Assembly (NCBI GenBank): GCA_002709705.1
Contig: PAQE01000037.1
Coordinates: 1-62,943, forward strand
Direction: 5' to 3'
DNA from: Methanobacteriota archaeon
GTDB lineage: Archaea > Thermoplasmatota > Poseidoniia > Poseidoniales > Poseidoniaceae
Length of the DNA stretch: 62,943 bases
The notes beneath the pieces were generated by a model. It worked only from the letters and a program-made list of their open reading frames with translations, did not search any database and was not told where the DNA came from. The translations under genes were made by a program, and so were the position numbers. This document shows positions 18,937 to 62,428 of the stretch, one piece after another (within the stretch, counting starts at the first letter, position 1; the number at the start of each line of letters is the position of its first letter).

Positions 18937-23936
<5,000 letters not shown>

Positions 23937-49562: not shown

Positions 49563-50723
49563 ATGGCAATGTCTGATTCTAACGCTAGTCATGGAGTGAG
49601 AAATTTCCTTGAAATAGAGCCCAGTGTCCTCTCTGGTACACTGAAATTACCTCCTTCAAAAAGTCATTCCATGCGCTGGTTAACGCTAGCTAGTATGGAC
49701 CAATCTCCTACAAAAATTGAGATGTGGGAGATTGGAGAAGATGTGCAAGCTATGATCAATTGTTTGATTGGTTTGGGTATAGATTGGGATGGTCTGATTA
49801 TGACTGGAGGTAATCTAAACTCTCCGAATGCTGTCCTAGATTGTAAAAACAGTGGTACAGCACTACGATTCTTGATTGCACAGGCGGCTACATGCGACTT
49901 TACAATTATACTTGATGGCGATGCAAGCCTTCGAGCAAGGAGTTCCTTACATTTGGTTGAGTCGTTGGGAGTCAGTGCCAAATCTCTTTCAGAAAATTCT
50001 GAATATCCTTTACAGATTGATGGTCCATTCTCTTCAAAATCAGTTGAAATTGATGTTTCAAAAACCTCACAATTTCACTCAGCGTTGATGCTTATGACTC
50101 CACGTACAAATGGCTTCAGAATCGAAACAAGTGGAGATGCTGTATCCAGAAAACATTCCGACTTAACTTGGGATTTGTGTAAAAAAACTGGTGCAGTAAA
50201 TCCAGGAACTCCTTGGTTGGTAAAATGTCCCGACGTTGTTATTCCCTCTGATGCTTCGATGATGGCATTTGCAAAATTAGCTGGATTGGGAGTTGAGAAT
50301 CCTCCTGATTCATCAGATGCAATTGGGCATGACCTAGAGAACCAATTTCTGCGTGATTCAAACGATTTGATCACTCCTATGGCAGCATGGCTTGCACTGG
50401 GTAAAGGAGGTACAATTAGCGGAGCAAAACATGCAGCTTTTAAGGAGTCAAACAGGATTACGAAAACTGCAGAATTACTTTCTAAGTTTGGTATAAAATC
50501 GAAAATAAATGAAGACGGTATTGCATTACCTGGTGGACAGCAACCGATTAAGCCACAAGGAATCGTTGAAACATATGGTGACCATAGAATACAGATGACT
50601 GCAATAATTTTGGCCTCAAAATGTGGTGCGACTATTGAGGGTGCTAATTTACATAAAGTTGCTTGGCCAACTTTTTTGGAACAATTAACTAGTCTTGGAT
50701 TAAAACTCAAATTTCATCCATGA
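49563..50723 (+). CDS. aroA: EPSP synthase (3-phosphoshikimate 1-carboxyvinyltransferase)
   Basis: The archaeal-type EPSP synthase motifs are present: LPPSKSHSMRW (phosphoenolpyruvate-binding), DCKNSGTALRFLIA, DGDASLRARSS, KESNRITKTAEL and YGDHRIQM. It transfers the enolpyruvyl group to shikimate 3-phosphate. Length is 386 residues, or two fewer from ATG 49569. The start is inferred because an upstream frame from 49512 overlaps moaA. The end overlaps mutL by 10 bases. Confidence 0.93.
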   Translation: MAMSDSNASHGVRNFLEIEPSVLSGTLKLPPSKSHSMRWLTLASMDQSPTKIEMWEIGEDVQAMINCLIGLGIDWDGLIMTGGNLNSPNAVLDCKNSGTALRFLIAQAATCDFTIILDGDASLRARSSLHLVESLGVSAKSLSENSEYPLQIDGPFSSKSVEIDVSKTSQFHSALMLMTPRTNGFRIETSGDAVSRKHSDLTWDLCKKTGAVNPGTPWLVKCPDVVIPSDASMMAFAKLAGLGVENPPDSSDAIGHDLENQFLRDSNDLITPMAAWLALGKGGTISGAKHAAFKESNRITKTAELLSKFGIKSKINEDGIALPGGQQPIKPQGIVETYGDHRIQMTAIILASKCGATIEGANLHKVAWPTFLEQLTSLGLKLKFHP

Positions 50724-52615
50724 CGTCCGAAATGATGGTCCAGAGCATTCAATGGAATTCTCATTGCGGTTGGCCTACCATGAACACATGCCCATGGGTT
50801 AGGGATTCTGCGCATATCATCAAGCAATCTTCTCATTTGCGACAAGTTTAGTTTTTCATTTGCCTTAACAGCGCCTCTACAAGCATTTAGGAATGCCAGA
50901 TGGTCCTTACGCTGTTCAATGGTTTCCATAGGTGCGCCATCTTCACTCATATCTAGCAAAATATCATGCATAAATGGTTCCAGTTCACTTGCAGATAGTA
51001 GAGCAGGAGCACTAGTTATAGAAAATCCAGCGGCATTCTTTTCAATAACAAAACCCATGTTTTTCAGGTCATCAAATCTTGCCTCTAATCTTGCAACTTG
51101 CCTAGCATCAAGGTCAAGTGGTACAGGAGAAATCCTCTCTTGGGCTTGCCACAGGCTTTCATCATGCCGCAATCTTTCATATCGGACTCTTTCGTGCAAA
51201 GCGTGCTGGTCTATTAGCAATAATTCCTCATCGGCTTGAACTAAGATATACGAATCTGCAAATTGCGCAAGAGGTTCCATCACAGGCAAGTCATTGATTA
51301 CGGGTCCTAGTGGTTCAGTATTGTCAATATCTTCTGTTTCTCCGCATCCAGCATGTCTGTGTAATTCTCTTTCTCCAATAGATAATGCGGGAGCAATTGC
51401 TTCAATTCCTGTGATAGTGGTTTGAGAAGATTCAGACTGTGATATTGGTCTAGGCTTTTCCTTCTTGATTTCAATCGGCTTTTCTCCGGTGAGTGAAATT
51501 TGTGCCGTTTGTGCCCATGCAGGCTTTTCGACAACTCTCCTCTCTTCAGTTTGGGGAGCTAATGATGTAATTCCAGTTATTCCTCCACTTGATTCAGGCT
51601 CTGTTGGAGTAGATTCTAGCGTGTATGCAATACTGCGTTCAAGTCTCTCCAGTACGCGCCAAGAATGCTTCAATCTAACTTCCCTCTTGGTAGGATGAAC
51701 GTTTACATCGACTTCATCGTGTGGTAAATCAAGAAGCAAGACTGCAACTGGGTGCCTGCCTTGCATCAATCGAGTTTTGTATCCCCTTCTAATCGATTGT
51801 AAAAATGGCTGAGCGGCAACAGGTCTTCCATTAATCAAAACATGAATCTCATCACCTTTCCCTCGAGTAATATCTGGGGTCGAAATCCATCCTGACCATC
51901 TCTCATCTCCCGGAGCATCAGCATCGCTTTGTGGGGCCGAAATAGAGATCATCTTACCAGCTTGTCTTCCAAGTACATCGTACAATCTATCTTCCATTTC
52001 TTCTACTGCTGGTACTTCCAAAATCGTTTTTTCATCGCTAACTAGTCTAAACCCAACATCTGGATGACTAATTGCATGTGATACTACAACATCGACAATT
52101 TTGCTTGTTTCAGTGGCTGGCCTGCGTTGGAATGCCAACCTTGCAGGTTGGTTAGCAAAGATTTGGGAAACTTCGATCGAAGTTCCTTCTGCAATTCCCG
52201 CAGGCTCGATTTTACCTTTGTTTCCGTTATCCATCACGATTCTTCGTCCTTCAGTACTTCGAGGCCTACTGGAAATTGAGAGTTTACTGACCATACCAAT
52301 GCTAGCCAATGCTTCTCCTCTGAATCCTAATGTTCCTATAGCGGATAAATCATCTTCACTGGATAGTTTGCTAGTAGCATGTCTATCAAGAGAAAGGGAC
52401 AAATCATGTTCGTGAATTCCAGATCCATCATCTGTAATCCTGATTAAATCAAACCCTCCCCGATCAATTTCAATGGTAATTCTAGATGATCCAGCATCGA
52501 TTGAGTTTTCGATTAATTCTTTGACGACCTGGGCCGGCCTTTCTACAACTTCTCCTGCCGCTATATGACCGATTGTCCTATCATCTAGTTGCTTTATTCT
52601 AGAAGGTTGACTCAT
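50714..52615 (-). CDS. mutL: DNA mismatch repair protein MutL
   Basis: The GHKL ATPase motifs are intact: ELIENSIDAG, DDGSGI, and TSKLSSEDDL with GFRGEALASI. The C-terminal domain has the endonuclease motif DQHALHERVRYE (Asp469 to Glu480, the DQHA(x)2E(x)4E form) and ACVHGRPT. MutL proteins with this motif nick DNA, unlike that of E. coli. The linker (about 340-420) is Pro/Glu-rich. Its ATG overlaps the mutS stop (4 bases), an operon. MutS/MutL are absent from most archaea and in this group are of bacterial type. Confidence 0.95.
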   Translation of the reverse strand: MSQPSRIKQLDDRTIGHIAAGEVVERPAQVVKELIENSIDAGSSRITIEIDRGGFDLIRITDDGSGIHEHDLSLSLDRHATSKLSSEDDLSAIGTLGFRGEALASIGMVSKLSISSRPRSTEGRRIVMDNGNKGKIEPAGIAEGTSIEVSQIFANQPARLAFQRRPATETSKIVDVVVSHAISHPDVGFRLVSDEKTILEVPAVEEMEDRLYDVLGRQAGKMISISAPQSDADAPGDERWSGWISTPDITRGKGDEIHVLINGRPVAAQPFLQSIRRGYKTRLMQGRHPVAVLLLDLPHDEVDVNVHPTKREVRLKHSWRVLERLERSIAYTLESTPTEPESSGGITGITSLAPQTEERRVVEKPAWAQTAQISLTGEKPIEIKKEKPRPISQSESSQTTITGIEAIAPALSIGERELHRHAGCGETEDIDNTEPLGPVINDLPVMEPLAQFADSYILVQADEELLLIDQHALHERVRYERLRHDESLWQAQERISPVPLDLDARQVARLEARFDDLKNMGFVIEKNAAGFSITSAPALLSASELEPFMHDILLDMSEDGAPMETIEQRKDHLAFLNACRGAVKANEKLNLSQMRRLLDDMRRIPNPWACVHGRPTAMRIPLNALDHHFGRHG

Positions 52616-55233
52616 TTTTCATCCTCCATTATTTTCAGTAGTTCATAAAGAGCATCGTGAGCTTGTCTTGGGCTCATTGTATCAGGGTCAATTCTCGATA
52701 TTGCTTGCTTCAACGCTTCTCCCATTGCGTCTTTCTCAATCTTAACTTGCGGTTGTCCGACAAAGCCTAGCAGTGATGATTGACCTGCATTCCGGGCTGT
52801 TGGAGCCCCTTTTTCTCCAGCCTTAGCACCTTGCGCTTGCCTCTCTAAGAACCCCAGAAGGTCACTAGAACGTTCAACAACATGTCTCGGCAGGCCTGCT
52901 AAAGCAGCAACTTGAACTCCGTAAGAATCATCACAGGGGCCATCAGAAACAGTATGTAGGAATTTCAATTCTCCATCAGATTCTGCAACTTGAACATGCA
53001 CATTAACCAGACCCTCTGCACCTCCTTCCAACCCGATTAGTTGATGATAATGAGTTGCGAAAAGTGTTCTAGAGCCAATTCTCTTACAGATGTCTTCGGT
53101 CACCGACCAAGCAATAGACAATCCATCGAAAGTTGAGGTTCCTCTACCAATTTCATCCAATAGGATTAGCGATTTATTTGTCGCTCTTTTCAAAATATGA
53201 GCGACTTCCATCATTTCCATCATGAATGTAGAGCGCCCTCTTCGAATGTCATCAGAAGCGCCAACTCTAGTGAATATTCGATCAACTAAACCTACTTGCG
53301 CGCTGCTTGCCGGAACGAAGGAACCGGTTTGTGCCAAAACAGAGAGTAGAGCAGCACATCGCAGATGGGTGGATTTCCCTCCCATGTTCGGTCCAGTAAT
53401 CAATAGGAAGCGTCGCTTTTTGTCAAGTTTTAGATCATTGGGTACGAATCCACTTTGAGCCTCTAAAACGGGATGCCTTAGTCCCTTGGCAACCAATCTT
53501 TCGTCTTCAAAAATTGTGGGTCTTGTCCAAGAACGATTTCTTGCGATTTCAGCAAAGCACTGCAGAACATCGATTTGTGCGACACTCGAACTAATCATCC
53601 CCAGAGTTCTAGATTTTTCTCTACACCTATCCCTTAGGTCTCTAAACATATCATATTCAATGGCATTAGCTTTGGTATCTGCGGTAACAAGTTTGTCTTG
53701 CCATTCAACCAATTCTTCAGTGACATAACGATTACCATTAGTCATTTGTTGCCTTCTATTCCAGTCTTCTGGGACTTTAGATAAGTGCGTCTTTGTGACT
53801 TCAATATACCATCCAATCTGCCGATTATGTCTTACCTTTAGCGAAGGGATATCTAATCTGGCCCTTTCTTTAACTTCGAGATCCTTGAACCACTTGTGTC
53901 CTACAGCAGCCGCCTTTCGTAATTCGTCTAATTTTGCATCGATACCTTCTCTAATAATTCCGCCATCACGTAATGAGAGGGGCTGTACATCATTGAGATT
54001 AGCCTGAATATCGATTCTCATCATCTCTAGGACATCTAAGTCTGAAGATAATTTGGTAAGTAAAGAGTCATCGACTTCCATGCAGAGTGCCTTTAATCGC
54101 GGCATTCTTTCCAGCGCTAAGCCGATTGCTACTAAGTCACGACCTCCTGAACGGTTGTAGGAAAGTTGAGTGGCCAATCTCTCCATATCTCTCAATCCTT
54201 TGAGGCTATTACGCAATTCATCCAAACGCCGAGAAGATCTTGCTAAAGAGGCTACAGCGTCCTGTCTTCGCTCAATTTTCTCTTTGTTTGCCAGTGGCCT
54301 TAGTATCCACTGCTTGAGTGTTCTTCTACCCATAGAGGTTCGACATTTGTCAATCGCACCGAGTAAGGAACCTTCTTTTTCACCAGCCAATGTCTGAGTC
54401 AACTCCAAGTTTCGGAGTGTGGTTTGGTCTAGTATCATATTTCCTTCAGGACGCATAATTTCGATTTCTCTAAAATCGATTGAATCAACTATATGCATTG
54501 CTGCTAGGTAATCCGCAGCCAATCCAGCAGCATCCATGGCCAATGGGGAGTCTCCTAGGTCTATGTGTCCTAAATCTGCCACTTCAAGGATGTTTTTGAG
54601 AGCATCTTGTCCTTTTTTGCGTGAAGAAGTGTGTTGCGAAAGTGTAACTCCGTCTATTTGTGAAATAATACTCCTAACTTCTTCTCTGTCAGCATCCCTC
54701 GGTGAGAAAATCAGTTCCTTCGGGTTGCTTCTAAGTAAGTCATCGAGTAATCTAGACCACCTTTCATCTCCATGATGCTCCACAGTCCAGACATATCCGG
54801 TTGAGGCATCAAGAATTGCAAGGCCAACTCCATCACCTTTGAGAGATATTGCTGCTAGGCCAGCAACTTCATCGGTTCCAATCAGACTTTCTTCGTATAG
54901 GGAACCTGGCGTGTATATCCTTGTAACTACTCTTTCAAGCAATTTGGCTCCTTCTCTGAGTTCATCTTCCTGCTCGGCCACGCATACTTTGTATCCTGCT
55001 TGCAACATCTGCCGCAGATTATCTTCTAGAGCATGCCATGGGAAACCTGCCATTGGAATTGGTTCAGATGCTTTCTTGTCTCTACTGGTTAGAGCTAGCC
55101 CTAATACTTCAGAAGCAACAACTGCGTCATCATGGAACTGTTCGTAAAAATCTCCCATGCGGAAAAATAGTACAGAATCTGGATGTTCTGCTTTGATGTC
55201 CATGTATTGGTCCATCATACCTCTTTTCGCCAT
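52612..55233 (-). CDS. mutS: DNA mismatch repair protein MutS
   Basis: An 873-residue MutS1 with all domains. The mismatch-reading FxE is in MGDFYEQF (Phe29, Glu31), the Walker A motif is GPNMGGKSTHLR (Lys620), followed by RVGASDDIRRGRSTFMMEM, DEIGRGTSTFDG and ATHYHQL. It recognises base mismatches and recruits the MutL behind it. The C-terminal tail keeps a helix pair for dimer or tetramer contacts. It begins at an ATG and precedes mutL with ATGA overlap on the minus strand. Confidence 0.96.
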   Translation of the reverse strand: MAKRGMMDQYMDIKAEHPDSVLFFRMGDFYEQFHDDAVVASEVLGLALTSRDKKASEPIPMAGFPWHALEDNLRQMLQAGYKVCVAEQEDELREGAKLLERVVTRIYTPGSLYEESLIGTDEVAGLAAISLKGDGVGLAILDASTGYVWTVEHHGDERWSRLLDDLLRSNPKELIFSPRDADREEVRSIISQIDGVTLSQHTSSRKKGQDALKNILEVADLGHIDLGDSPLAMDAAGLAADYLAAMHIVDSIDFREIEIMRPEGNMILDQTTLRNLELTQTLAGEKEGSLLGAIDKCRTSMGRRTLKQWILRPLANKEKIERRQDAVASLARSSRRLDELRNSLKGLRDMERLATQLSYNRSGGRDLVAIGLALERMPRLKALCMEVDDSLLTKLSSDLDVLEMMRIDIQANLNDVQPLSLRDGGIIREGIDAKLDELRKAAAVGHKWFKDLEVKERARLDIPSLKVRHNRQIGWYIEVTKTHLSKVPEDWNRRQQMTNGNRYVTEELVEWQDKLVTADTKANAIEYDMFRDLRDRCREKSRTLGMISSSVAQIDVLQCFAEIARNRSWTRPTIFEDERLVAKGLRHPVLEAQSGFVPNDLKLDKKRRFLLITGPNMGGKSTHLRCAALLSVLAQTGSFVPASSAQVGLVDRIFTRVGASDDIRRGRSTFMMEMMEVAHILKRATNKSLILLDEIGRGTSTFDGLSIAWSVTEDICKRIGSRTLFATHYHQLIGLEGGAEGLVNVHVQVAESDGELKFLHTVSDGPCDDSYGVQVAALAGLPRHVVERSSDLLGFLERQAQGAKAGEKGAPTARNAGQSSLLGFVGQPQVKIEKDAMGEALKQAISRIDPDTMSPRQAHDALYELLKIMEDEK

Positions 55234-57249: not shown

Positions 57250-59019
57250 ATGCGTATTGCAGTTCTTATCGAAGAAAAATGCAAGCCAAAAAGCGAGGCA
57301 TATGATTACCTGAAGAAGTGGTCAGGTTCATGTGGTGCTGAGTGCATCCAGATGAATGGTGATAAATTCAAAATTTTGGAGACTGCCTGCCCCCCTTGTT
57401 TTATCAGAGCTAAACACTGTCCCGGCGGCGCTGTAGTGGTGGTGAATTTACCTGCAGAATTGGAAACTGACTTGATTCATAGATATTCATTGAACGGATT
57501 CAGATTATTCAGGCTACCAACTCCATCAAGAGAATCAGTGGTTGGAATCTTAGGCCCGAATGGAATGGGTAAATCAACAGCATTCAATATTCTGAATGGT
57601 TCGATAATTCCAAATCTCGGAGATTTTGAAGCTGATGAATTATGGTGGGAAGATGTTATCGAGAGTTTACCTCGTGGAGAGTTGAGAGATTTCCTGGTAG
57701 ATGTTAGCGAATCAGAAGTAACTGTGGCTCTGAAACCACAGTATGTCGATCATATTCCAAAAGCGGTAAAGGGCCGGGTTGGAGAACTACTTTCCTCTGT
57801 TGATGAAAGAGGAGTCTACCAAGAGATGATTACAAAACTTGGAATCGGACATTTACTTGAAAGAAACCTTGACCAATTATCCGGGGGCGAACTTCAACGT
57901 GTTGCGATTTGTGCAACACTACTGAAGGATGCAGATGTGTATTTCTTCGATGAGCCATCCTCATATCTTGATATTCATGAACGCATGCGAATTGTGAAAA
58001 TCATTCAAGAATTATCTGAACATTCTAGGGTTATTGTTATCGAACACGATTTGGCAGTACTCGATGTTCTTGCCGATTTGGTACATATTGTATATGGAAA
58101 GAAAGGAGCATTCGGAATTTTTACTCCTGCACGTTCTACAAGGCAAGCAATTAATGCATATCTTGATGGATTCTTAGTCGAACAAAATGTCAGGATTCGT
58201 GATAAACCTATCAAATTTAAAACTCATACTGATCGCTCTAATGAACTTGGTAATCCTGTAGTAACCTGGGGTGACCTAGAGAAAAAATTAGGGGATTTCA
58301 ATCTGAAAACAGGCGATGGAAAAGTCCACCAATCCGAGGTTGTAGGAGTCGTTGGTCCAAATGGAACTGGTAAATCAACCATGATCAAAATATTAGCCGG
58401 TGAGCACGAATACGATGCAGGATGGGTGACTGATGATGCATCTATTTCTTACAAGCCTCAGCATATAGATACCGAGATGGATTGTGATGTCCAGACTTGG
58501 CTTGATTCCGAAGTAGGAACCAAGTGGAGAAGTGGAGAATATAGTGTGAATGTGATTAGAGCCTTGGGCGTTGATGAATTATTGACAAAAGAAGTATGCA
58601 ACCTTTCTGGTGGTGAAGCTCAGGCTGTTGCTATTGCAATTTGTTTAGGAAGAGAGGCAGACCTCTATCTCCTAGATGAGCCAAGCGCACATTTGGATGC
58701 GAATGCGAGAATGCAGGCTGCTAAAGCGATTAGAAAAACGATGGAGTCTAATGAAAAAGCAGCGTTTGTGATTGACCATGATGTTTATTTCATAGATATC
58801 GTTTCAGATTCTCTACTGGTTTTTGAAGGTGAAGGTGGTAAAAATGGAATGGCAGAAGGTCCTTTCAAGTTACGAGCAGGAATGAATCGTTTCCTTCAAG
58901 GAGTCGATGTTACATTCCGAAGAGACCATGATTCAAAACGTCCTAGAATAAACAAGAATTCGAGTCGCAAAGACAGAGAACAACGTGGGAAAGGCGACTA
59001 TTACTCATTTGATTCATGA
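57250..59019 (+). CDS. ABCE1/Rli1 ribosome-recycling ATPase with altered iron-sulfur domain
   Basis: A 589-residue ABC protein with two nucleotide-binding domains: GPNGMGKST and LSGGELQRVAI, then GPNGTGKST and LSGGEAQAVAI. The first Walker B runs into DEPSSYLD and the second into DEPSAHLD. The hinge region fits ABCE1. This factor splits ribosomes after termination. The N-terminal domain normally binds two 4Fe-4S clusters with eight cysteines. Here only six are seen (Cys11, 28, 32, 47, 50, 57): the second of the first set (position 16 is Glu) and the third of the second set (position 53 is Arg) are missing. ATG 57250 follows GGAGGG. Confidence 0.85.
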   Translation: MRIAVLIEEKCKPKSEAYDYLKKWSGSCGAECIQMNGDKFKILETACPPCFIRAKHCPGGAVVVVNLPAELETDLIHRYSLNGFRLFRLPTPSRESVVGILGPNGMGKSTAFNILNGSIIPNLGDFEADELWWEDVIESLPRGELRDFLVDVSESEVTVALKPQYVDHIPKAVKGRVGELLSSVDERGVYQEMITKLGIGHLLERNLDQLSGGELQRVAICATLLKDADVYFFDEPSSYLDIHERMRIVKIIQELSEHSRVIVIEHDLAVLDVLADLVHIVYGKKGAFGIFTPARSTRQAINAYLDGFLVEQNVRIRDKPIKFKTHTDRSNELGNPVVTWGDLEKKLGDFNLKTGDGKVHQSEVVGVVGPNGTGKSTMIKILAGEHEYDAGWVTDDASISYKPQHIDTEMDCDVQTWLDSEVGTKWRSGEYSVNVIRALGVDELLTKEVCNLSGGEAQAVAIAICLGREADLYLLDEPSAHLDANARMQAAKAIRKTMESNEKAAFVIDHDVYFIDIVSDSLLVFEGEGGKNGMAEGPFKLRAGMNRFLQGVDVTFRRDHDSKRPRINKNSSRKDREQRGKGDYYSFDS

Positions 59020-59028
59020 GGTGTGATA

Positions 59029-60633
59029 ATGCCGGCACAAATACCTCCAGAGGCCCAATCGATAGGCAGGGCTCGAGGAAGATTATCTGCTTCATCATTA
59101 ACCACATTCAGACGTTGTGAAAAGCAGTGGTTTTTGAATTACAGAATTGGCTTGCGAGGTCCTCTGTCTCCACATCAAGTGATGGGTATCGAAGTAGAGG
59201 ATGCGTTTTGTTCAATCTTGATGCATAGAGCACCGCAAGTAAATTCAATCGAAGATTTGGAAGAATGGGCTCACAGTCTTGTTGAAGAGCACGCAAGTAA
59301 AGCGCTGCAGCAGGGAAAGTCCACATTTGAAGATGCGATGTGGAATAACGGGGAGTTCGATGAGCATTTTAGTACAGAAAAAGTATCTCAAATGTTGAAG
59401 AATGGTTTGAGATTGCAATTCGAGGAAGTAAAAGCATGCTTTGAATCCGGAGGGGGCCAATACGAATTTGAAATTCCTGCACCATGTTGGGACTCTCCAC
59501 CCCACTTTACTCAACCTGAAAAGGCGAATAGCATGGTTTCTTGGAAAGACGAGCCTCATCATTTTGGCGAAGAAATCACTTGGCAGGATGCATGGGAAAT
59601 CGCTCGTCCGTGGGTAAAAGATCCAAGAAATCCAGAGCCTCAGAGGATGTACCACAATGACAAATGGGCGGCTGGAGAATGCGATCTAGTTCACCGTTGG
59701 GATGGTAGAGTACGCATTATAGATATCAAAATGGGAGATGGGGAAGGTAAGTTCGCATCTTCTCTTCCCGACCAGTTAAATTTCTATGCATGGTTATGGA
59801 ATGAAACCCATGACTCAAAATGTGATGGACTTGAAGGATGGTATCTTACAAATGGGCTTCGTAAAATAGTCGAAGTAAATCCTCTTACGTCTAATGAATA
59901 CAGGGAAATACATGACAAAATGAAGAATTGGAGTAATGACAATTCCTTTCCTCTAAAATCACCATGCGATGGTGTTGCAGGAGGGTGCCATTGGTGTTCT
60001 GTTAGTGAATTAGATTTCGATCCGCCAGAAATTTCCATGCCATGTGAGCCATTATCTGCAATACCTTCCAGAGTTAATGTGAAGGGCAGGCTGCAAGGCG
60101 CATGGGGTCCTTTGCCCAATCACTATGGAGAGATGGTTCTAGGAGCAATGATACAAGCTGGGGACAAGATGGTTACACTCGAAGAAAGCCAGCCAGGATC
60201 ATATCCTGCAATGCATGATTCACCTCAAGATGACGTTGTTATCACGGGGGCCCTTCCCGGAGTCTGGAGGGGCCAGCCTCGATTGTATCTGGATGATTTT
60301 TCCTCTATAGAAGCAAAGTCTGAAGAAGAATTGACTCGAATGGGTATGCTGCGAACAAAAGCCAATGTAATGGGAGTGGTACTCTCATGTTCTAAGCGAG
60401 ATGGTCAAAGATCTGACGGCCGTCCATGGTCAATGCTATCATTCCATCTTTGGGATGGCGGAAGAGTTGCCGAAGTGGTAGCATTTGGTTCTGCTATCAA
60501 TGGAACAATGTTATCAATCACACCGGGAACAATTGTCAAACTAACTTCAGCAGAATTGGGTTGGAGAGAAGGTTTGGTGCAATTGCGTATAGATTCTAGA
60601 ACAACCAGAATCGAAATCAAATCGAAGCCTTGA
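59029..60633 (+). CDS. PD-(D/E)XK nuclease with partial Cys cluster and OB-fold domain (copy 1)
   Basis: A RecB/Cas4/AddB-like nuclease of 534 residues. LSASSLTTFRRCEKQWFLNY has Cys30 in the position of the first Fe-S ligand of AddB/Cas4-type enzymes. The active site is GECDLV (Asp219), IIDIKMGD (Asp232, Lys234) and DQLNFYAWL (Gln249). Cys313, Cys320 and Cys323 follow, but the last ligand of the C-x2-C-x5-C pattern is Asp329. Cys339 may replace it. From about residue 430 an OB-like beta domain follows (MGVVLSCSKRDGQRSDG, LSFHLWDGGRVAEVVAFG, TIVKLTSAELGWREG). A paralogue is directly next. It follows ABCE1 after 9 bases, with GAGGTG as its ribosome site. Confidence 0.75.
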   Translation: MPAQIPPEAQSIGRARGRLSASSLTTFRRCEKQWFLNYRIGLRGPLSPHQVMGIEVEDAFCSILMHRAPQVNSIEDLEEWAHSLVEEHASKALQQGKSTFEDAMWNNGEFDEHFSTEKVSQMLKNGLRLQFEEVKACFESGGGQYEFEIPAPCWDSPPHFTQPEKANSMVSWKDEPHHFGEEITWQDAWEIARPWVKDPRNPEPQRMYHNDKWAAGECDLVHRWDGRVRIIDIKMGDGEGKFASSLPDQLNFYAWLWNETHDSKCDGLEGWYLTNGLRKIVEVNPLTSNEYREIHDKMKNWSNDNSFPLKSPCDGVAGGCHWCSVSELDFDPPEISMPCEPLSAIPSRVNVKGRLQGAWGPLPNHYGEMVLGAMIQAGDKMVTLEESQPGSYPAMHDSPQDDVVITGALPGVWRGQPRLYLDDFSSIEAKSEEELTRMGMLRTKANVMGVVLSCSKRDGQRSDGRPWSMLSFHLWDGGRVAEVVAFGSAINGTMLSITPGTIVKLTSAELGWREGLVQLRIDSRTTRIEIKSKP

Positions 60634-60661
60634 ATAGGCACCAACTTGGGCTTATCGAGTC

Positions 60662-62428
60662 ATGCCAGTGCGAAGTGCTGACCCTGTGACCGATGATATC
60701 GGTCGTTTTAACAGGCTTTCAGCTTCACAAGCGAACACTTGGGACGATTGTCCTAGGCTATGGTATTATCAAAACAAGATGAGGCTGAAGTTTCCGCAGA
60801 CTCCTCCCCTATTTCTGGGCAGGGCTGTTGAAGAATGTGTATGCAGAGTCTTGATGGAATCACCAGGTTTAGTATTCCCTTCAGCGCCATTAGATGTAAT
60901 GGCAAATGGTGCGGATAACTTACTTCCACTATTCGATGATGAGTTGCCAGAAGATTTCATGCACTGGTGTGAATCAAGAATAGATATTCATTGGCCAAAA
61001 ATTCGTGATGAGATGCATGAAGAATGGTCTAATAATGCACGTAAGGCTGGTAATTGGCATGATTATTCTATGGATGTTTATCGAGATATGTGTGTAACTG
61101 CATTACGAATGCACATGGATGAAGTCAAACAATGTAGAGATACGATTACTGAAATTGAGTTATCTGATTGGCGCAAAGGAGCCAGGAATGAAATTCCAGC
61201 ACCAGATGGCCGGAAAAAGTCAGGGCCACACCCGTTGGCTAGAACTGGACAATGTACCTTAGTTGAAGCATGGGAAATAGCTAGGCCTTGGTTTGTTGAC
61301 CCGGATGAGCCGCCATTTTCACTTAATGTGGTTCACCCAGAACACTGGTTCCAAGGGGAATACGACCTAGTGTATCGTCATGGTGGTAAAATCAGAATCA
61401 TGGATTTGAAAGCCAGTAGGGGAGGGGGCGATAGAAGTGGCAATTATGTCGAGCAGTTGCGCATATACGCAATGCTTTGGTCGATTACACACGAAGGTAA
61501 AATCCCAGATAATCTCGAAGTCTGGTACCTTGGAGTGGGCATCAGAAAGAGTGTAGAAGTACCTTCAGCACAAGAGATTACAGAATTAGAAAGAAAGTTA
61601 CATGATTTGTGGCAAGAAATCAAAGGCACTGATGTTACCCTAGATGATTGTCCACCGATTCCTCGACCTTTGCGCGGCTATGGTGAAGGCGGTATCAAGC
61701 AGCAAGACCCAACAGAGTCCAGGTGCGTTACTTGTGATTGGGAGGGATTGTGCCCTAATGGAACAGGAGATGATGATTTACCAAGCGGAGGTGTTCACCA
61801 CCCTCCTGGAGATCTGAAGGAATACGATTTGACTCCATTCAATGAATTGGTACCTAGAGTAAACATATTCTGTGAAGCATTTAGTGTTACTAATGTTCCA
61901 GATAAGCCCCCAAATATAACCATACAGCAGGATGGTGGATTTGCTTTCGTTCGCATAATTGCAGAAGAAAGTGAAGGAGTGCTTACTTATGATGAAAATA
62001 TACAGAAAGGAGACACACTGCGTCTTGTCGGAGTGATTCCCTCAACTAATTGGAAAGGTGAATTGCAACTGAAAGTTGATCCATACGCAAGGGTCGAGAA
62101 AGCGAATGAAAGCCAAGAAGGAGACATCGGTTTGTTCGATTTCAGAGCGAGATGGAATGTTGTTGGCAGAGTCGCTTATACAACATTCAAGTCAGGTATT
62201 GGTAAGACTGGGAAACCATGGGCACGCAAAGGTTTGGTCATCTTGGATGAAACAAGCAGAATCACAGTCGAAGGCTGGGATAATGCGTGGCCTAGTATCT
62301 ACAATACTCTCAAGCAAGGAGATGAGGTTGCAATTCTCAATGTTTCACTAGATGCTTGGGCTGTCGATGTTAAAGCTAACCTAGAGAAAGGCAGCACAAT
62401 CCACGTAATCTCCAGGGCAGACGATTGA
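60662..62428 (+). CDS. PD-(D/E)XK nuclease with complete Cys cluster and OB-fold domain (copy 2)
   Basis: A 588-residue paralogue of the preceding gene. LSASQANTWDDCPRLWYY gives Cys30, and RCVTCDWEGLC gives Cys355-x2-Cys358-x5-Cys364, exactly the Fe-S staple of AddB/Cas4-type nucleases. The catalytic residues are Asp235 (GEYDLV), Asp248 and Lys250 (MDLKAS) and Gln265 (EQLRIYAML). The C-terminal part has an OB-like domain (VGRVAYTTFKSGIGKTGKPWARKGLVI, in pieces GLVILDETSRITVEGW) and, before it, a further beta region. Both copies share a WEIARPW..DP element before the active site. The role is probably DNA end processing, with the OB domain binding single-stranded DNA. Confidence 0.8.
   Translation: MPVRSADPVTDDIGRFNRLSASQANTWDDCPRLWYYQNKMRLKFPQTPPLFLGRAVEECVCRVLMESPGLVFPSAPLDVMANGADNLLPLFDDELPEDFMHWCESRIDIHWPKIRDEMHEEWSNNARKAGNWHDYSMDVYRDMCVTALRMHMDEVKQCRDTITEIELSDWRKGARNEIPAPDGRKKSGPHPLARTGQCTLVEAWEIARPWFVDPDEPPFSLNVVHPEHWFQGEYDLVYRHGGKIRIMDLKASRGGGDRSGNYVEQLRIYAMLWSITHEGKIPDNLEVWYLGVGIRKSVEVPSAQEITELERKLHDLWQEIKGTDVTLDDCPPIPRPLRGYGEGGIKQQDPTESRCVTCDWEGLCPNGTGDDDLPSGGVHHPPGDLKEYDLTPFNELVPRVNIFCEAFSVTNVPDKPPNITIQQDGGFAFVRIIAEESEGVLTYDENIQKGDTLRLVGVIPSTNWKGELQLKVDPYARVEKANESQEGDIGLFDFRARWNVVGRVAYTTFKSGIGKTGKPWARKGLVILDETSRITVEGWDNAWPSIYNTLKQGDEVAILNVSLDAWAVDVKANLEKGSTIHVISRADD

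Follow-up and report, generated by a model that had tools for sequence, protein, structure and literature searches.

A tandem pair of paralogous nuclease genes

The DNA studied was contig PAQE01000037.1 of assembly GCA_002709705.1, from the archaeal order Poseidoniales, and the window comprised the whole stretch of 62,943 nucleotides (nt). Two genes, named here P1 and P2, lie in tandem at 59029-62428 on the forward strand, separated by a gap of 28 bases. P1 (59029..60633, with an alternative GTG start at 59023) encodes a protein of 534 amino acids (aa) and P2 (60662..62428) one of 588 aa. Open reading frame, Pfam and AlphaFold2 (AF2) analyses assigned to each protein a PD-(D/E)XK nuclease domain of the iron-sulfur (Fe-S) type followed by tandem oligonucleotide/oligosaccharide-binding (OB) folds. 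The two are full-length paralogs with 25% identity (E value, 2e-38) and the products of an old duplication; a preliminary description made from the sequence alone had proposed such a tandem at these positions.

Both paralogs retain all catalytic residues

The Pfam family PDDEXK_1 (PF12705) matched both proteins above its gathering cut-off of 22 bits, with 47.7 bits for P1 (E value, 2.4e-12) and 50.3 bits for P2 (3.9e-13), and was matched by 23/23 nuclease-only family members scanned (E <= 0.01). The P1 domain covers approximately residues 16-330 (59074..60018; AF2 predicted local distance difference test score, pLDDT, 88). Both are RecB-family PD-(D/E)XK domains, in agreement with the preliminary assignment to the RecB/AddB/Cas4 type, its Fe-S part being based on the cysteine pattern.

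Conservation was assessed in two sequence sets, one with 20 P1 and 35 P2 sequences over two families and one with 58 P1 and 61 P2 sequences from a scan of GTDB genomes. Residues E217, D219, D232, K234, Q249 and Y253 of P1, and E233, D235, D248, K250, Q265 and Y269 of P2, were invariant in both sets, giving each paralog a D...(D/E)-x-K core with a downstream Q-x3-Y. The cores map to 59677..59730 (E217/D219 ... D232-x-K234; 58/58) and 61358..61411 (E233/D235 ... D248-x-K250; 61/61). Because these residues are invariant in both, neither P1 nor P2 looks catalytically dead. The other shared elements listed in the preliminary description, namely Cys30, WEIARPW..DP, GE(C/Y)DLV, (I/M)D(I/L)K and a Q-containing helix, were all present and nearly invariant. 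The WEIARPW signature occupies residues 189-195 of P1 (59593..59613) and 204-210 of P2 (61271..61291), and none of the other nucleases compared from Poseidoniales genomes showed the WEIARPW..DP element.

A G-x3-H motif I is typical of RecB-type nucleases and is not required of the PD-(D/E)XK superfamily. P1 and P2 have G-x3-E instead in 119/119 sequences, a variant inside the superfamily. Glu57 of each protein (59197..59199 in P1, 60830..60832 in P2) was aligned by hhalign opposite the motif-I His of a third Poseidoniales RecB nuclease, and this His is kept in the AddA-like, AddB-like and third RecB nucleases of the order (described below). An altered metal preference is a possible consequence.

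Cysteine patterns fit one metal site

P2 carries the iron-staple pattern of an N-terminal Cys (Cys30, 60749..60751; 61/61) and a late C-x2-C-x5-C (C355-x2-C358-x5-C364, 61724..61753), the latter intact in 61/61 sequences and in 35/35 of the wider set, as perfect as it had first been read. In P1, the candidate ligand Cys30 (59116..59118) was present in 58/58 sequences of the GTDB-scan set and is replaced by Gly in assembly G030. The last staple Cys is gone from the P1 branch of the window. Its replacement by Asp329, noted earlier, was confirmed; Asp329 itself was ruled out as a ligand, the position not being conserved. Of the two substitutes suggested at the time, Cys313 held up, lying seven residues upstream and being present in 58/58, whereas Cys339 was ruled out with conservation in 20/58. 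The resulting relocated staple, C313-x6-C320-x2-C323 (59965..59997), has a first spacing of x4 or x5 in some genera and becomes C-x-C-x2-C in two others; in one P1 (L166), C320 is replaced and an extra Cys adjoins C323, so that four Cys are still present. The late-Cys loss is lineage-specific, since P1 of genera g7, g15, g17 and g19 retains the full C-x2-C-x5-C staple.

All members examined keep four candidate ligand Cys except the G030 P1 (L068:5778-8455), which has lost Cys30 and the entire late cluster while retaining the catalytic residues. That the four Cys are kept together and lost together fits their all binding a single metal site. Another Cys, C137 of P1 and C158 of P2, is nearly invariant and probably no ligand, because G030 also keeps its copy. 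Judged from these patterns, P1 and P2 probably contain an Fe-S cluster, and that of P1 appears to have been kept through the relocated C313 rather than lost.

Each nuclease is followed by two OB folds

AF2, named in the preliminary description as a check, gave confident nuclease-OB-OB models for each chain from 61 (P2) and 58 (P1) homologs, with pLDDT 90.2 and predicted TM-score (pTM) 0.87 for P2, and pLDDT 88.4 and pTM 0.86 for P1. In both, a helical N-terminal part is followed by the PD-(D/E)XK core and two successive beta-barrels. The OB-like tail reported earlier was confirmed and is of RPA/SSB type, but profile and AF2 resolve it into two folds, not one. In P1, OB fold 1 spans residues 349-428 (60073..60312; AF2 secondary structure and a profile match to Ta0387) and OB fold 2, of RPA/SSB type, residues 444-531 (60358..60621; profile, AF2 and Foldseek). 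In P2, they span residues 400-480 (61859..62101; profile and AF2) and 498-584 (62153..62413; profile, AF2 and Foldseek).

The family profile searched against PDB sequences matched Pyrococcus abyssi RPA (2e-8) and archaeal SSBs (about 1e-3) in the second fold and, weakly, the Thermoplasma protein Ta0387 (2k75; 0.005) in the first. Foldseek placed the DNA-binding OB arrays of RPA70, Teb1 and POT1, together with HIN domains, among the top PDB matches of the tails. The P1 model matched mouse Dna2 (5ean) over 515 columns with a TMq of just 0.33, and in a viral library the P2 nuclease matched phage exonucleases of the RecB family over about 360 columns (TMt up to 0.62).

Distribution and history of the pair

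The family was searched with a profile within Thermoplasmatota and with a short motif in GTDB genomes. In the phylum sample, the nuclease family was found in 62/64 Poseidoniales genomes and in 0/5 genomes of the sister family in the class, with three marginal partial matches elsewhere; conservation of the pair in the order, a check named in the preliminary description, was supported. Outside Poseidoniales, the strongest matches listed for the whole-protein profile fell on the OB region of proteins some 250-490 aa long, probably RPA. The GTDB scan confirmed 287 stretches, and the 80 of 287 listed were all from Poseidoniales or marine Euryarchaeota metagenome-assembled genomes (MAGs). No relative was found in the viral contigs or phage records searched, and a viral origin was rejected, although phage exonuclease profiles matched weakly. 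Near-universal presence in the order, with none in the sister-family sample and none in the viral or phage collections, is a housekeeping pattern. Purifying selection on both genes is strong, with nonsynonymous to synonymous rate ratios (dN/dS) of about 0.02-0.06 in unsaturated pairs, rough values since synonymous sites saturate fast.

Directly upstream of P1 on the same strand lies a gene for a twin-ABC ATPase (57250..59019; ABC_tran match), which we take to be ABCE1/RLI-like from its domain layout and general knowledge. The P1 start is 3-10 bases from its stop codon, and co-transcription with P1 and P2 is likely. The tree showed one P1 clade and one P2 clade (each 100/100), indicating that the two families separated after the duplication. 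The order ABCE1-P1-P2 was found throughout family f1 (Poseidoniaceae) where assembled and in genera g15, g17 and g19 of family f2, and looks ancestral. Six f2 genera forming one clade (100/99) have P2 only, P1 having been lost once; their P2 follows two genes that are presumably radical-SAM-like and pdxT-like, named from sequence by general knowledge. Conversely, the G030 assembly (85% complete) has P1 at the locus without P2, and downstream of P1, where P2 would be expected, stands a DnaQ-like exonuclease gene; this gene was ruled out as part of the system, no close relative being near other pairs. Elsewhere in the window of this archaeal genome, a gyrB-gyrA pair was observed (19268-23936).

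Other nucleases of Poseidoniales genomes

NurA was undetected in 61/61 genomes searched, and no Rad50 zinc hook scored above cut-off in the 61 genomes. Most genomes encode a UvrD helicase-nuclease of ~1600 aa which, where read, adjoins a ~1220-aa nuclease with an AddB-type staple; the two are an AddAB-like pair. On a contig separate from P1 and P2 (G000:C32), the AddB-like and AddA-like genes are adjacent (L108:1024-9491), as also in Poseidoniales relatives. The absence of a RecB/AddA helicase nearby, asserted earlier, is therefore true locally but not of the genome. For an archaeal order, this is resection machinery of a bacterial style.

These genomes also carry a third conserved RecB nuclease of Fe-S type, about 400 aa long (G000:C7, L232:1230-2459; orthologs L234, L235 and L236). 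It adjoins an exonuclease gene that we take to be DnaQ-like by resemblance to another such gene that was scanned, and whose product ends in a GKHKG/GRHKG motif. At L233:1248-2477 (G000:C1), a fourth PDDEXK protein was noticed, which has a C-x2-C-x5-C staple and apparently also membrane helices. DUF87 (HerA-like ATPase) was considered as a correlate of P1 and rejected because the distribution of DUF87 ATPases, HerA and others taken together, does not follow P1.

Comparison with known nucleases

AddB of AddAB and AdnAB shares with P1 and P2 a RecB-type core and the N-terminal Cys with a late three-Cys staple. It differs in that P1 and P2 have no helicase-like region (Pfam, AF2), carry an OB tail and have Glu for the motif-I His; the AddA-like helicase gene sits with a different AddB-like gene, the genome's own. 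Descent of P1 and P2 from the AddAB-like nuclease domains of the same genome was rejected: the family profile matched the Poseidoniales AddB-like domain weakly (hhalign 80.5%) and the AddA-like domain not at all. The third RecB nuclease is closer, with a clearly homologous nuclease domain (hhalign 97.5%) and a C-x2/3-C-x5-C staple, but it keeps the motif-I His, has neither WEIARPW nor the double OB and stands beside a DnaQ-like gene.

Cas4 and solo-Cas4 are likewise helicase-free PD-(D/E)XK nucleases with a four-Cys staple, and a Cas4 bearing this staple degrades single-stranded DNA (ssDNA) as a 5'-3' exonuclease (PMC3466216). P1 and P2 are much larger, have the tandem OB tail and scored 13.3 and 16.8 bits against the curated NCBIfam Cas4 cut-off of 65. 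Dna2 resembles them in that its Fe-S nuclease packs against an OB fold, and the P1 model matches it over the columns given above; its nuclease tunnel is threaded by ssDNA (PMC4716839), and the activities of human DNA2 need the Fe-S cluster (PMC7311471). In Dna2, however, a single OB lies N-terminal to the nuclease (PMC4716839) and an SF1 helicase C-terminal to it, whereas P1 and P2 have two OBs after the nuclease and no helicase domain (Pfam). Exo5 (Exonuclease V), a free-standing Fe-S RecB-type ssDNA exonuclease (general knowledge; named in PMC3466216), is by analogy probably the nearest functional analogue. The comparison is by description. No Exo5 Pfam match was reported at E <= 1 for P1 or P2 (HMMER filters drop weak matches). 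We know of no OB array in Exo5.

P1 and P2 are an iron-staple RecB-family nuclease variant with two OB folds. The open-access literature and the collections searched yielded no description of a nuclease-OB-OB family, in keeping with the earlier remark that no described system with this fusion was known.

Proposed role and alternatives

We consider it fairly probable that both proteins are catalytically competent, stand-alone ssDNA nucleases without a helicase, that they belong to the iron-staple (RecB/AddB/Cas4/Exo5) type, each with its own ssDNA-binding OB tail, and that they serve chromosomal DNA maintenance. After a duplication in the Poseidoniales ancestor, the four-Cys cluster of each protein would pin the nuclease fold shut, and the two RPA-type OB folds at the C-terminus would hold on to ssDNA and guide an end into the nuclease, standing in for the separate RPA that helps Dna2 or Exo5. 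The substrates would be ssDNA tails, flaps or gap strands. The stand-alone ssDNA nuclease is proposed by analogy with Cas4, Dna2 and Exo5; the paralogy, fold, catalytic-residue conservation, tandem OB folds and distribution were observed, and the ssDNA specificity, polarity, exonucleolytic mode, iron and repair or replication role are inferred. P1 and P2 are not the sole end-processing candidates, because the AddAB-like pair and the third RecB nuclease are also present; they would act beside the separate AddAB-like complex, which more likely performs helicase-coupled resection.

Several points weigh against this assignment. The locus has neither a helicase partner nor a repair operon; the gene that constantly adjoins it in the ancestral arrangement encodes an ABCE1-like ATPase, which has a link to translation. 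The nuclease activity is a prediction from sequence and models, the structural matches from Foldseek cover local regions at low TM-scores and high root-mean-square deviation, and the motif-I Glu in place of His might change or lower activity. The Cys set could also bind zinc, as in DUF3799 (PMC3466216).

A bolder extension, which we hold only tentatively, is that an undescribed two-enzyme ssDNA module, with a nuclease and an RPA-like array in each chain, assumed the task of resection or flap processing in an order without NurA and apparently without Rad50 hooks, P1 and P2 splitting polarities or substrates and P1 repeatedly rewiring its Fe-S ligands.

Among the alternatives, an excision exonuclease of mismatch repair, in which P1 (and P2) would degrade the nicked strand for MutS/MutL, is unlikely but a lead. 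In several P1-bearing f1 genera, mutS (and mutL in longer contigs) lies on the opposite strand at about 4-8 kb upstream (50714-55233 in the window, and relatives, by neighbourhood reading), and MutL was undetected in four f2 genera (g12, g14, g16 and g18), all in the P1-less clade (Fisher P value = 0.014 by genus). With a single P1 loss, however, this association amounts to one or two evolutionary events, shared ancestry being ignored by the Fisher value; MutL is kept in two P1-less genera, one P1-bearing MAG is without it, and the mutS/mutL neighbourhood is not retained in f2.

The direct ABCE1-P1-P2 arrangement in f1 and in g15, g17 and g19, together with the ability of OB folds to bind RNA, would suit a nuclease linked to RNA or the ribosome and working with the ATPase. 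We regard this as quite improbable: in six genera P2 has left the ABCE1 neighbourhood and yet persists, the OB tails are nearest to RPA/SSB, and RecB-family nucleases act on DNA, as is generally known.

The preliminary description had tentatively suggested an AddAB-like heterodimer with one structural and one cleaving subunit. To an obligate form of it, with a structural P1 and a cleaving P2, the adjacency and probable co-transcription of the genes in all pair-bearing genera and the freer evolution of the staple in P1 than in P2 lend some colour. This model is very improbable, given the 100% conservation of catalytic residues in P1, the occurrence of either gene alone (P2 in the six genera, P1 in the G030 assembly) and the separate AddAB-like pair. 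An anti-phage defence nuclease is scarcely credible, despite weak PADLOC matches of P1 and P2 to DruK and Cas4 and the known defence contexts of Cas4-like nucleases (PMC5704561), given the vertical, order-wide distribution, the strong purifying selection and the housekeeping neighbours.

If P1 and P2 are indeed stand-alone ssDNA nucleases of chromosomal maintenance, they would represent a compact natural fusion of nuclease and ssDNA-binding modules. P1, set against its unchanged paralog P2, would offer a clean natural experiment in the relocation and loss of Fe-S ligands, and both would be candidate enzymes for how Poseidoniales manage without NurA.

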